A stretch of DNA of 64,000 bases from positions 1 to 64,000 of the forward strand of contig DAIDAP010000034.1 in NCBI GenBank assembly GCA_027310565.1, in the 5' to 3' direction. The position numbers and the translations under genes were made by a program. Positions 48,572 to 55,144 of the stretch are shown one piece after another. Positions within the stretch are counted from its first letter, which is position 1; each line of letters starts with the position of its first letter. Below the pieces are notes generated by a model that worked only from the letters and a program-made list of their open reading frames with translations, was not told the DNA's origin and made no database searches. The stretch comes from Chloroflexota bacterium (GTDB lineage Bacteria > Chloroflexota > Limnocylindria > P2-11E).

Positions 48572-49504
48572 GTGAAGCTCGGCATCCACGTCGGTCACCT
48601 CGGCGGTCCCCTCGAGGAGCTGCGCCGGCTGTGGCGATTCGCGGACGAGCGTGGCTTCGAATGGTTCTCGGTGTCGGACCACTTCCAGGAGACGCCGGGG
48701 CAGGGCGGGACCGGCGAGTGCTACGAGGCGGTGTCGACGCTCGCTGCCGCCGCGACCGACACGCGCCGCGTGACGGTGGGCTGTCTGGTCTTCTGCGTCG
48801 CCTACCGGCATCCCGCGCTCCTCGCCAAGGCGGTCACGACGATCGACCGCCTCTCCGGCGGCCGCGTCGCGTGCGGTCTGGGGGCGGGATGGCACGAGCC
48901 CGAGTACCGCGCGTACGGCATCCCCTTCCCGAGCGCGGCGGTGCGCGAGGACCAGCTGGCGGAGTACGCGCGGGTGCTGCGCCTCCTGTTCGACGAGGAC
49001 CGCGCGGACTTCCGTGGCGAGCACTACACGCTCGAGCACGCGCCGAGCTTCCCCAAGCCGGTGCAGGCGCACCTCCCGATCTGGATCGGCGGCGCCGGCG
49101 AGAAGCGCACCCTGCGCACCGCGGCGCGGTACGCCGACGCCTGGAACGCGCCGTACCTCTCGCCCGCGGGGTGGCGCGCGAAGAACGCCGTCCTCGACCG
49201 CTGGTGCGAGGCCGAGCGCCGCGATCCGCGCGAGGTCGTGCGCACCGTCAACGTCGGCTTCTACATGGGCGCGGACGAGGCCGGCGTGCGCCGGAGCGAG
49301 GAGCGCTACCGGCGCGAGTGGGGCACGGACGAGCGCGGCTGGACGGGCTTCCTCCGGGGGCGCGCCGCCGACGCGGCCGACCTCGTCGGCGCCTACCGCG
49401 ACGCCGGCGCGGCCCAGGTGAACGTCGCGGTGCGCGCCGGGCCGTACGACTGGGACGCGCTGGAGGCGTTCGCGACCGAGGTCATGCCACCATTCCGGAC
49501 GTGA
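48572..49504 (+). CDS. LLM-class F420-dependent oxidoreductase (second copy)
   Basis: A 310-residue luciferase-like TIM barrel, different in sequence from the one at 17435. VKLGIHVGHLGG at the start, FSVSDHFQETPGQGG, VTVGCLVFCVAYRHPALLAK, VACGLGAGWHEPEYRAYGIPF (read in two parts) and LPIWIGGAGEKRTLR are typical. It heads a forward unit with the 127-residue protein and the candidate selenoprotein; the GTGA overlap with the next gene suggests one transcript. Confidence 0.85.
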   Translation: MKLGIHVGHLGGPLEELRRLWRFADERGFEWFSVSDHFQETPGQGGTGECYEAVSTLAAAATDTRRVTVGCLVFCVAYRHPALLAKAVTTIDRLSGGRVACGLGAGWHEPEYRAYGIPFPSAAVREDQLAEYARVLRLLFDEDRADFRGEHYTLEHAPSFPKPVQAHLPIWIGGAGEKRTLRTAARYADAWNAPYLSPAGWRAKNAVLDRWCEAERRDPREVVRTVNVGFYMGADEAGVRRSEERYRREWGTDERGWTGFLRGRAADAADLVGAYRDAGAAQVNVAVRAGPYDWDALEAFATEVMPPFRT

Positions 49505-49884
49505 GCGAGCCGAAGCTGCGGCTGGAGCCGGTCGAGGCCACGCGGACGAACGGGACGTGGCGCACCTGGTGGCGCGTGACGAACGAGGGCGGGGGCGAGG
49601 TGCGGCTCCTCTCCATCCGCGCGCCGCACGCGCGGTTCCGCGCGGAGCCGGCGGACCTCGACGTCATGGTCGCGACGGCCGCGCGTGTCGAGATGAAGGT
49701 CCGCGTGGAGGCCGCCCCCGGGGAGGAGATCGAGAACGCGTTCGTCATCCTCATCGCGCGGCGCGAGCACGAGACCTGGCGGCTCATGTTCCGCGTGCGG
49801 ATCCGTCTCGACGACCGCGGGTCCCCCTGGCCGATCGTCGAGGCGCTCACGACCCATCGCGTGGGCTTCACCGAGGAGGTGTGA
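49501..49884 (+). CDS. hypothetical beta-sandwich-like protein
   Basis: A 127-residue soluble protein with alternating hydrophobic residues (LRLEPVEATRTNGTW, TWWRVTNEGGGEVRLLSI, MFRVRIRLDDRG) that suggest an immunoglobulin-like beta fold. No family recognised. Its GTG overlaps the LLM stop. Its last codons carry the GAGGAGG ribosome binding site of the candidate selenoprotein gene, so the two are linked. Confidence 0.7.
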   Translation: MSEPKLRLEPVEATRTNGTWRTWWRVTNEGGGEVRLLSIRAPHARFRAEPADLDVMVATAARVEMKVRVEAAPGEEIENAFVILIARREHETWRLMFRVRIRLDDRGSPWPIVEALTTHRVGFTEEV

Positions 49885-49885
49885 G

Positions 49886-50102
49886 ATGGAGCAGCACGAC
49901 CGGACGGTCATGCTCCGCATGAAGGGCTGACGCGGCAACTGAAGCCTCGGCTTCGAGGAGACCACGGGCATGGTCTCGAACGTGTTGGAGATGGATCAGC
50001 GCGAGCTCATCGCGCTGCTGAAGACCTTCCGGAAGAAGTACGCGGACGACGCGGAGTACGCGCGGCTGCGTGCCGCGCTGCCGAAGTCGTGGCCGTTCTG
50101 AT
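49886..50102 (+). CDS. candidate small selenoprotein with two in-frame TGA codons
   Basis: From ATG 49886 one frame runs to TGA 50100-50102 and is interrupted only by TGA 49928-49930 and TGA 49940-49942. Read as selenocysteine it gives about 71 residues: MEQHDRTVMLRMKG, U, RGN, U, then SLGFEETTGMVSNVLEMDQ and a charged helical C-terminus ending in SWPF. GAGGAGG lies 7 bases ahead of the ATG, so ribosomes should start here. The two TGAs sit in a redox-like U-x3-U spacing, and a SECIS-like hairpin follows. Alternatives are two nonsense mutations in a dying gene or a shorter start at ATG 49970. No close family is recalled. Confidence 0.6.
49952..49980 (+). promoter_or_regulatory. bacterial SECIS-like stem-loop
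   Basis: GAGACCA (49958-49964) pairs perfectly with TGGTCTC (49971-49977) around the 6-base loop CGGGCA. An extra TTC/GAA helix (49952-49954 with 49978-49980) closes below a 3-base bulge. The loop starts 22 bases after the second TGA and 34 after the first, and has G at loop position 2. These fit the published bacterial SECIS pattern (loop about 16-37 bases from UGA, G among the first two loop bases). Confidence 0.5.
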
Positions 50103-50149: not shown

Positions 50150-50920
50150 TCAGCCTCTCGGCAGTCGCACCTCGGGGTGCCGGAGCGCGAGCGGCGCGTT
50201 CCCGGCCCAGTAGACGTCGCGCCTCCCGGTCATCGCCTGGACGTGGCCGTCCCACTCGAAGTTGAACGCCTCGCAGCCCAGGCGCACCGCGCGGCGCACC
50301 CGCTCCTGCGTCGCCTCGTCGCGCGCGTGCTCGCGGATCACCGCGATCTGGCGGGCGCCGTGCCCGGTGTCCTGCTCGGCGTGCAGCTCGTACGTGGCGG
50401 CCGCCTCGCGCGGGAAGCCGTAGTGGCCGGTGAGCTCGCGGAAGACGCGCGCCGCGGCGCCGTCGGGGCCGCCGTGCATCGCCTCGACGAACGCGAGCAG
50501 CGCGATGCCTTCGAGCGCGCCGCGGTTCTGGCAGCCGGAGCGGATCATCTCGATCGCCGCAAGCGTCCCCGGCGCGGGATCCGCGCGGTCGGCCTCCTCG
50601 CGCGTGATCCCGGCGTGCGCGAGGAACCGCAGCATGACGTCGACGTGCGTCTGCTCGCCGCCGAGCTCCTCCATGAAGTTCTCCATCACGACGTCCATGA
50701 GCGCGTAGCTCCGCTCGGACGCCACGTTGGTGACGATGTAGCCGAAGAAGATCGGGTTGGTGCGCACGCGCAGGTAGTGCTGGATCTCGCCGAGGATGAT
50801 CTGCTCCCGCGACCATTTATGGTCAACGATGCCCCGGAACCAGGGGTGGTCGGGCATGAAGAGGCCGCGGGCCGTCTCCCAGAGCTCGGCGACGAAGGCG
50901 TCCGGGTCCTTCGCGGGCAC
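50150..50920 (-). CDS. PqqC/TENA-like heme-oxygenase-fold protein
   Basis: A 256-residue all-helical protein. HPWFRGIVDHKWSREQIILG, EIQHYLRVRTNPIFFGY and LTGHYGFPREAAATYELHAEQD (read in parts) match the PqqC/CADD branch of the heme-oxygenase-like fold. Conserved His/Glu residues (EIQH, HAEQDTGHG) could hold iron or a cofactor. Family members act as cofactorless or di-iron oxidases; which applies is unclear. The GTG start has TACAGT 6 bases upstream. Confidence 0.72.
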   Translation of the reverse strand: MPAKDPDAFVAELWETARGLFMPDHPWFRGIVDHKWSREQIILGEIQHYLRVRTNPIFFGYIVTNVASERSYALMDVVMENFMEELGGEQTHVDVMLRFLAHAGITREEADRADPAPGTLAAIEMIRSGCQNRGALEGIALLAFVEAMHGGPDGAAARVFRELTGHYGFPREAAATYELHAEQDTGHGARQIAVIREHARDEATQERVRRAVRLGCEAFNFEWDGHVQAMTGRRDVYWAGNAPLALRHPEVRLPRG

Positions 50921-50926
50921 GGGGCC

Positions 50927-50932
50927 ACTGTA
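50927..50932 (-). promoter_or_regulatory. putative -10 box (TACAGT) for the PqqC-like gene
   Basis: TACAGT on the minus strand is 6 bases ahead of GTG 50920. Confidence 0.35.
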
Positions 50933-52590: not shown

Positions 52591-53753
52591 CGCTCACCAC
52601 CTTCGCCCCGCTCCCCGTCGTCGAGGAGTACCGCGAGATCGTCGAGGACCGCGGCTACCCCACCGTCCGCGAGTGGAAGCGCCGCACCGGGCGGGCGGCC
52701 GTGGGGAGCTTCCCGGTGTACTCCCCGGTCGAGATCACGCACGCCGCCGGCATGCTGCCGGTCGGGCTGTTCGGCGCCGGGAACCAGATCGAGATGGCGC
52801 ACGCCGACTCGCGCTTCCAGTCCTTCATCTGCTCCATCGTGAAGAGCACGCTCGAGCTGGCGTTCGTCGACAAGCTCGCGCCGTTCGACGCGCTGCTCTT
52901 CCATTCGATCTGCGACCCCGCGCGCAACCTCGCCTCGGTCATGGCGCGCAACTTCCCCGAGCGCCGTGCGATCTACGTCCACCTGCCGCAGAACATGGCC
53001 TCGAGCGGCGCCGCGGAGTACTACGCGTACGAGCTGCGACGCGTCGCCGCGGAGCTCGGCGCGGTGTCGGGGCGCGTCCCCAGCGACGAGGACGTCCTCG
53101 AGAGCATCGTGGCGTTCAACGCGATGCGCTCCCGGCTCCGCGACCTCTACGCGCTGCGCGCGGAGCGTCCGGCGAACCTCTCGACGGCCGAGCTCTACAC
53201 GCTCGCGCGCATGGCGACGTTCACCGACCCCCTCGAGTCCGAGCCGCTCCTCGCCGACTCGCTGCGCTCCGCGACGACGCGAGACGCGCGGCCGAAGGAC
53301 CGCATCCGCGTCGTCGTGGTCGGCTCCTTCTGCGAGCAGCCGCCGCTCGAGCTCATCGCGGGCATCGAGGAGTCCGGCTGCTACATCCTCGACGACGACT
53401 TCCTGCTCGGCTGGCGGCTGTTCAGGACGGACGTCCCGGTGGACGGCGACCCGTACCTCGCGCTCGCGCGCGCGTACCTCGACGGCAGCCTTCACGCGAG
53501 CACGAAGCACGACCTGCGCGTGCCGCGCGCCGCGGGCCTCGTGGCGAGCGCGCGCGCGAACCGCGCCGACGCGGTGATCTTCCTCGGCGCCAAGTTCTGC
53601 GAGCCGGGTCTCTTCGATTACGCGCTGTACCGCCGCGCGCTCGAGCAGGAGGGCATCCCGCACCTGTTCCTCGAGTTCGAGGAGAAGATGTGGATGTACG
53701 ACCGGATCAGGACGGAGGTCGAGACCTTCGTGGAATCGATGCTGTTCGTATGA
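52587..53753 (+). CDS. bzdN: benzoyl-CoA reductase, BcrC/BzdN-type subunit
   Basis: A 388-residue member of the 2-hydroxyacyl-CoA dehydratase D family, matching BcrC/BzdN in length. ITHAAGMLPVGLFGAGNQIEM, SRFQSFICSIVKSTLELAF (Cys 82), FHSICDPARNLAS (Cys 109) and GAKFCEPGLFDY provide likely Fe-S ligand cysteines. With the next subunit it holds the substrate and the cluster that reduces the aromatic ring. GGGAGG precedes the GTG start, which also overlaps the GNAT stop. The hydroxyacyl-CoA dehydratase alternative is made unlikely by the neighbours. Confidence 0.82.
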   Translation: MTLTTFAPLPVVEEYREIVEDRGYPTVREWKRRTGRAAVGSFPVYSPVEITHAAGMLPVGLFGAGNQIEMAHADSRFQSFICSIVKSTLELAFVDKLAPFDALLFHSICDPARNLASVMARNFPERRAIYVHLPQNMASSGAAEYYAYELRRVAAELGAVSGRVPSDEDVLESIVAFNAMRSRLRDLYALRAERPANLSTAELYTLARMATFTDPLESEPLLADSLRSATTRDARPKDRIRVVVVGSFCEQPPLELIAGIEESGCYILDDDFLLGWRLFRTDVPVDGDPYLALARAYLDGSLHASTKHDLRVPRAAGLVASARANRADAVIFLGAKFCEPGLFDYALYRRALEQEGIPHLFLEFEEKMWMYDRIRTEVETFVESMLFV

Positions 53754-55144
53754 CCGAGCACCACGGCGCTCCGGACCATGACATGACGGGCCACCACGAG
53801 GCCCCGCCGCGGGAGAGCCCCCCGGCCGCCGCGCGGCGCGCTCCCGTCGAGACGGCGAAGGCGGAGCCCGTCCACTACCAGGGCAGGGTCCACGAGCTCC
53901 AGAAGGAGCTCATGAACGCGTACTACGCCGAGCTCACCGACATCGCCAAGGGCCGCTCGCCCAAGAAGAACGCGCACCTGCTCATCGCCGGCAACCCGGT
54001 CGAGCTGGTGCGCGCGTTCGACATGGTCCCGGTGTTCCCCGAGGTGAACGTGCTGCAGATCGCGGCGCGCAAGGCCTCGCTCCCGCTCATCCAGAAGGCC
54101 GAGGAGCTCGGCTACGCCGTGGACAACTGCGCGTACGTGAAGGCGGACGTCGGCCTCTACCTCTCGGGATACGAGGCGCCGTACGGCACCGTGCCGAAGG
54201 CGGACCTGCTGCTCTGCAACTACGTCGGCTGCAACGTCTACCTGAACTGGTTCGAGCACCTCGCCGAGCTCACCGGGGCGCCGGCGGTGAACATCGACAT
54301 CCCGTTCATCCGCTCGGCCGACGGCGAGCCGTCGCCGCAGGACATCGCGTACGTGGTGAAGCAGCTCGAGGAGCTCATCGGGCTGCTCGAGCGGACCACC
54401 GGGACGACGCTCGACTGGAAGAAGCTCCAGCGCACCGTGGAGCTGTCGGCGTACGTCGGCGAGATGTGGGCCGAGATCAAGGCCCTCACGCAGCTCCGTC
54501 CCGCGCCGTACGACGCGTACTTCGACTCGGTCACGATGATGGCCGTCCTGTACTGCCTGCGCGGCACCGAGGAGGCGGCCCGCTTCTTCGAGACCGCCGT
54601 CGCCGACCTGAAGGAGCGCGCCGCGCTCGGGAAGGGTCCGCTCCCGGAGGAGCGCTTCCGCGTCGTCATCGAGGGTCCGCCGCCGTGGCCGTTCCTGCGC
54701 GTGTTCCGCGACATGTTCACGCGCTGGGGCGCCGTCGCCGTGGCGTCGACGTACTCGACGGTCGGCGGGATCTGGGAGTTCGGCTTCCGCCACGACCCGC
54801 AGCGGCCGCTCGAGAGCATCGCGCGGCACATGCTCGCGCAGAACCTCTGCAACCGGACGTTCCTCCAGCGCTACGACCAGATGGCGCGCTACGTCGACGA
54901 GTGGAAGGCCGACGCGATCGTGATCCATTCGGTGAAGTCCTGCCGGTTGTTCTCGGCGGGCCAGGGCGACATGCGCGAGTACTTCGCGCGCGAGCGCGAG
55001 GTCCCCACCCTGCTCATCGAGTCCGACCTCGAGGACCCGCGCTACTTCTCGCAGGCGCAGCTGCGCAACCGCATCGACGCGTTCTTCGAGGCGCTCACGC
55101 AGCGGCGGATCACCGCCGCGGCGGCGGCGGGAGGTGTGGCATGA
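53750..55144 (+). CDS. bzdO: benzoyl-CoA reductase, BcrB/BzdO-type subunit
   Basis: A 464-residue 2-hydroxyacyl-CoA dehydratase-family subunit. Core features are [42 protein letters not shown] (read in parts), [19 protein letters not shown] and [18 protein letters not shown], which give the Cys ligands. The first 40 residues, with five His in [17 protein letters not shown], extend beyond the usual start and could be a linker or metal-binding tag. ATG overlaps the bzdN-like stop and its TGA overlaps the next ATG. Confidence 0.82.

Follow-up and report, generated by a model that had tools for sequence, protein, structure and literature searches.

In bacteria, each selenocysteine (Sec) codon is normally assumed to have a hairpin of its own, a set distance away. 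Prokaryotic selenoproteins containing two Sec residues are on record, and those entered in Table 1 of the 2026 catalogue of 119 families include, among others, the UxxU Prx-like, FmdB-like, MbdU and TsoB UxxxxU proteins (PMC13188914). These families resemble the protein described here in carrying more than one Sec in a bacterial protein (PMC13188914). However, compared table entry by table entry, none of the catalogued two-Sec families is listed with a U-x3-U motif in a 71-residue helical protein, and the present family is missing from the same table (PMC13188914, Table 1). In searches of openly accessible journal papers, no title or abstract among the matches listed dealt with this family or with a single bacterial SECIS for two UGAs. 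The eukaryotic selenoprotein P is described as likewise having more UGAs than SECIS elements per mRNA. Its SECIS elements, however, are located in the 3' UTR, from where they act over a distance, whereas the hairpin considered below, H2, is part of the coding sequence and near both UGAs.

In this study, we describe a small gene with two in-frame TGA codons in the window, by which we mean the whole stretch of 64,000 nt of DNA that was analysed. We propose that its product, a small protein, contains two selenocysteines, which would be inserted at these codons and form a U-x3-U motif. The reading frame opens with an ATG at 49886 and closes with a TGA stop at 50099-50101, both internal TGAs being in frame. 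The features of the locus are as follows:

49501-49884, forward strand: small gene (127 aa) lying upstream, with 1 nt between it and the selenoprotein ATG
49886-50101, forward strand: proposed double selenoprotein ORF, 71 aa with TGA read as Sec (U), ending in a TGA stop
49928-49930, forward strand: UGA1, read as Sec15, found in 57/58 rows of the Sec form
49940-49942, forward strand: UGA2, read as Sec19, found in 58/58 rows of the Sec form and doubling as the 5' arm of hairpin H1
49940-49955, forward strand: hairpin H1, UGAAG[CCUCGG]CUUCG, from the RNAalifold consensus; contains UGA2, loop variable
49958-49977, forward strand: hairpin H2, the putative SECIS core, a 7-bp stem with loop CGGGNA
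50150-50929, reverse strand: heme-oxygenase-like metal oxidase, convergent neighbour (PF14518, E 1.4e-18, over the cut-off)

By every testable rule H2 is a SECIS; what is new is the shared use that we propose for it and the covarying hairpin around UGA2. With a probability of roughly 0.78, H2 would be the site at which SelB binds for both UGAs and directs the insertion of Sec at each of them.

Two tandem hairpins and the bacterial SECIS model

The 122 loci with matches were reduced to 59 nonredundant sequences, one with Cys at both sites (the Cys/Cys form) and 58 in the Sec form (alignment A3). The 58 rows of A3 align without a single gap, and the distances from UGA1 to UGA2 and from UGA2 to H2 are therefore fixed. 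Their RNAalifold consensus consists of two tandem hairpins, H1 and H2. An outer helix enclosing both hairpins appears in the minimum free energy (MFE) fold of the window itself and is absent from the consensus of either 52 or 58 sequences.

The sequence-only reading of this DNA had placed a SECIS-like hairpin here, with GAGACCA (49958-49964), a loop CGGGCA (49965-49970) and TGGTCTC (49971-49977). Its description of H2 proved accurate, as did the spacing that it gave, with the loop 22 nt after the second TGA and 34 nt after the first, both within the published 16-37 nt, and the G that it saw at loop position 2, a G being found in the first two loop positions in 58/58 rows. The further TTC/GAA helix that it drew below the stem is present in the window but is not conserved, its C-G pair being formed in 18/53 distinct sequences. 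We rejected this helix as a stem extension, the conserved partner of the TTC being the UGA2 codon and the bases next to it, which form H1.

In the published bSECIS model, the loop has 3-9 nt and the upper stem 4-16 bp (PMC13188914, Fig. 2A), a G stands in the first two loop positions, the UGA and the loop are separated by 16-37 nt, and the MFE is -7.5 kcal/mol or lower (PMC13188914). For UGA2, H2 lies within the loop, G, spacing and MFE limits in 58/58 rows, and for UGA1 it does so in all 57 rows that have this codon. The loop is of 6 nt, and the hairpin is lacking from none of the TGA-containing homologs: all 7 pairs are standard in 57 of the 58 nonredundant Sec-form rows, and 6 are in the other. 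Folded in isolation, H2 has an MFE between -10.3 and -7.6 kcal/mol over the 58 Sec-form rows, every one of which is thus on the permitted side of the limit.

H1 is conserved as well. All 5 of its core pairs are standard in 53/53 distinct rows, and two of the pairs show double changes, which occupy 8 cells; shuffling gives a mean of 1.8, and 0 of 500 shuffles reached 8. When H1 and H2 are scored jointly, 98.1% of cells are paired against a shuffled mean of 96.3, with 9 double-change cells against 1.8. We regard the covariation of H1 as supportive of a pairing role and short of proof, because sequences that are related may score above shuffles of this kind even when unstructured. In a set of 52 sequences, whatever residue it encodes, codon 22 invariably has C as its third base, which would pair in H1.

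One element and two UGA codons

That one SECIS-like hairpin might serve both TGAs was already suggested in the sequence-only reading, and it is borne out to the extent that both UGAs, the synonymous sites of the stem and the Sec machinery are all conserved; H2 would then be the hairpin used by SelB at UGA1 as well as at UGA2. For comparison, eight genomes carrying this gene were inspected for UGA sites of formate dehydrogenase-like genes. The 11 sites (L127, L131, L135-L138 and L199-L203) are homologous and so do not count as independent cases. At 11/11 of these sites, a hairpin with its loop starting 18 nt after the UGA was among the three best; it was outscored in L131, L135 and L201, by another hairpin or an extended one. 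The 18-nt hairpins mostly consist of an 11-nt linker and a 7-bp stem (6 bp in L202 and 5 bp in L201) with the loop GGUCU, GGGCU or AGUUU. The present gene differs from this type of SECIS in that two UGAs 12 nt apart would share one core, and in having a further conserved hairpin, with UGA2 in it, in between. The loop differs also, CGGGNA in H2 as against GGUCU in the formate dehydrogenase sites, and the linker from UGA2 to H2, at 15 nt, is 4 nt longer than the 11 nt of the formate dehydrogenase linker.

It is improbable, in our estimation, that each UGA has an element of its own, H1 being the SECIS of UGA1 and H2 that of UGA2. H1 is indeed conserved and covarying, and its first pair follows 9 nt after UGA1, near the 11-nt formate dehydrogenase linker. 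However, H1 falls outside the bSECIS model: the distance from UGA1 to its loop is 14 nt, where the range is 16-37 nt, a loop G is found in the first two positions, as folded, in only 26/58 rows, the energy limit of -7.5 kcal/mol is reached in 0/58, and the loop sequence itself is variable, with 21 different 6-nt loops among the 58 rows. Nor does H1 follow the codon that it would serve, for the lineage with Cys at site 1 (L026/L069/L082), which lacks UGA1, retains a perfect H1.

If H2 is shared by the two codons, the position of H1 between UGA1 and H2 may have a meaning of a different kind. H2 starts 15 nt past UGA2 and 27 nt past UGA1. Because UGA2 is itself part of the 5' arm of H1, this hairpin must be melted when UGA2 is decoded; a ribosome at UGA2 would open H1, and H2 would then lie 15 nt downstream. 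With the ribosome at UGA1, on the other hand, H1 could remain folded, which would remove 16 nt from the path and leave 9 + 2 = 11 nt between UGA1 and H2, equal to the formate dehydrogenase linker in related genomes. The 11-nt linker with H1 folded and the forced melting at UGA2 suggest that H1 is a foldable spacer for UGA1, an idea that we put forward tentatively and hold to be doubtful. In the same tentative spirit, H1 could possibly be seen as a conditional ruler, whereby a single H2 would decode two Sec codons in succession through a change of effective distance. Against a spacer stands the same perfect H1 in the lineage without UGA1, where the idea predicts its loss unless the change is recent. 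Furthermore, both plain UGA-loop distances are already inside the published range, and H1 is only moderately stable, with a mean pair probability in context of 0.48 over the 58 rows.

Pairing and coding constraints on the stems

A degenerate H2 pattern has 1 occurrence in the window against 0.01 expected. Taken as a single sequence, the hairpin is only weakly unusual (fold z = -2.09). The single-sequence signal is mild, and the case for H2 therefore rests on conservation among relatives. The nearly invariant peptide FEETTGMVS could in principle generate the hairpins as by-products with no RNA role: synonymous resampling of the window protein returns the full 7-bp H2 stem in 11% of draws, a figure that applies to the window alone, and most of H2 is kept in the Cys/Cys homolog. 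We consider this explanation very improbable in view of the synonymous sites. Among 57 full-coding Sec-form sequences, the wobble bases of F23, E25, T26, T27 and V30, all of which lie in stems or at the loop G, have undergone 0 parsimony changes, whereas the interleaved free wobble sites of E24, G28 and S31 have undergone 9, 18 and 16, respectively. Elsewhere, at conserved residues other than Met, Trp and Sec, wobble positions have changed 4 to 22 times.

The homolog L040 also argues against a by-product of coding. Here E25 is replaced by Ser and S31 by Ala, yet pair 2 of H2 is kept as C-G in the place of A-U, and pairing is maintained in both hairpins save for the outermost pair of H2, which L040 lacks. 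Speaking against H2, on the other hand, its predicted pair probability in this homolog is 0.04 in a 70-nt context, even though the isolated hairpin has an MFE of -7.6 kcal/mol. Compensatory changes, which had been named beforehand as a check on the stem, are thus found once in H2 and repeatedly in H1; the one in L040 is the only independent case in H2, where the encoded residues also constrain the stem.

An equally strong hairpin in Cys homologs would have spoken against the SECIS reading. The sole Cys/Cys homolog has a weaker H2, at -6.6 kcal/mol and so above the limit of -7.5, with a G-C pair turned into G-U, and has lost H1; this comparison concerns one lineage only, in which protein coding still fixes most of the H2 stem. 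On these comparative grounds H2 is real and almost certainly a bacterial SECIS, to which SelB would be expected to bind.

Homologs, Sec machinery and gene neighbourhood

In the window's own family, the gene is present in 21 of 28 genomes, its own included. Both TGAs are found in 20 of the 21, and the remaining one combines TGC at the first site with TGA at the second. A sample of the phylum yielded the gene in 15/301 genomes, with both TGAs in 14 and Cys at both sites in one. Protein and profile searches of whole genomes leave the UGA spacing free. We also searched named genome contigs with a DNA pattern in which the first two bases of the FEET-GMV codons and the UGA spacing are fixed, the wobble bases are free and TGH is required at both sites. 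This pattern returned 59 stretches, all of them real homologs, with TGA/TGA in 56, TGC/TGA in two that have the same region (L069 and L082) and TGT/TGT in one. The hosts belong to Chloroflexi, Dehalococcoidia, SAR202, Candidatus Binatia and 'Deltaproteobacteria', together with a UBP12 bacterium, a Proteobacteria bin and a Syntrophobacter bin. A sample of one class contained the gene in 6/393 genomes, with two TGAs in 6/6, and the class of a Binatia genome contained it in 25/148, with two TGAs in 24/25; the other copy is truncated by a contig end and has an in-frame TAG further on. A search of 297 genomes matched only its own centre, and searches of a further 16 and 29 genomes produced no form beyond those already known. 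An earlier protein-profile scan with Cys codons only, to which UGA forms are invisible, gave 33 pattern matches, 0 of which were confirmed. One homolog at a contig edge (L176, G1133:C559) begins at UGA2 and has an in-frame TAG later, and is either a decayed copy or the product of a sequencing error.

The in-frame UGAs align with Cys in homologs, Cys codons being the only replacements seen at either site: TGC at site 1 in the single lineage L026/L069/L082 and TGT at both sites in the Cys/Cys form (L037/L100). Such forms are rare (3/59 DNA-pattern loci). The window's genome has a tRNA-Sec with the TCA anticodon and a SelB over the cut-off. A tRNA-Sec was found in 14 of the 15 Sec-form genomes of one survey, being missing in G257, and in 13 of the 14 of a second, being missing in G336; G026, which has the same gene region as G336, does have it. 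SelB was over the cut-off in 4/4 Sec-form genomes tested. The genome of the Cys/Cys form gave neither a tRNA-Sec nor a SelB over the cut-off, an absence that is uncertain in a genome 80% complete. Six genomes of the window's family (G017, G019, G020, G021, G025 and G027) have a tRNA-Sec and no match to the double selenoprotein, which is therefore not universal among Sec users. That the UGAs are not Sec codons at all, and reflect a code in which UGA is reassigned, simple read-through or a pair of short ORFs, is hardly credible despite the two gene-bearing genomes without a tRNA-Sec match at the threshold used, given the Cys replacements, the tRNA-Sec and SelB of the window's genome, and the fact that TGA, TAG and TAA each terminate this gene among homologs, so that TGA still means stop.

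With Cys in the place of Sec, the 71-aa protein had no family in Pfam-A or NCBIfam up to an E of 10. The AlphaFold2 model is built of four helices and has a mean pLDDT of 88.6 and a pTM of 0.70; the two Sec residues fall at or within its helix 3-19. Four residues apart on a helix, the two Sec residues should face the same side in this model, and a metal or redox dithiol-like site at these positions is possible. A Foldseek search with the predicted structure returned nothing at E <= 0.001. The best VIA-align match, a designed helical protein at Z 7.7, is within the range called uninformative, and for this reason no function is inferred from the fold.

The 127-aa protein encoded upstream has no match in Pfam or NCBIfam. 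A homolog of its gene lies upstream in 86/89 loci, and a homolog of the heme-oxygenase-like oxidase is nearby in 86/89. The oxidase resembles CT610/4-aminobenzoate synthase structures, although its similarity to CADD/4-aminobenzoate synthase is distant (45.8 bits against TIGR04305, where the curated cut-off is 200 bits). The Cys/Cys genome keeps all three genes, with the oxidase about 6 kb away. The selenoprotein, the 127-aa gene and the oxidase are likely to form a three-gene functional unit. As a module, the three genes span Chloroflexota and Binatia-type genomes and are undescribed. Elsewhere in the window, at 52593-55144 on the forward strand, are two adjacent genes for 2-hydroxyglutaryl-CoA dehydratase D-component (PF06050), followed by two genes which we take to resemble ATPase activator genes; this arrangement suggests a benzoyl-CoA reductase-like operon.

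The locus is a natural example, widely conserved, for studying over what distance a bacterial SECIS can act and whether one such element can decode two nearby UGAs, and its parts, at less than 60 nt, are amenable to reporter work. It also adds a two-Sec family that was missed by the curated models and by the 2026 catalogue, and whose hosts are poorly studied bacteria of soil, groundwater and marine environments.
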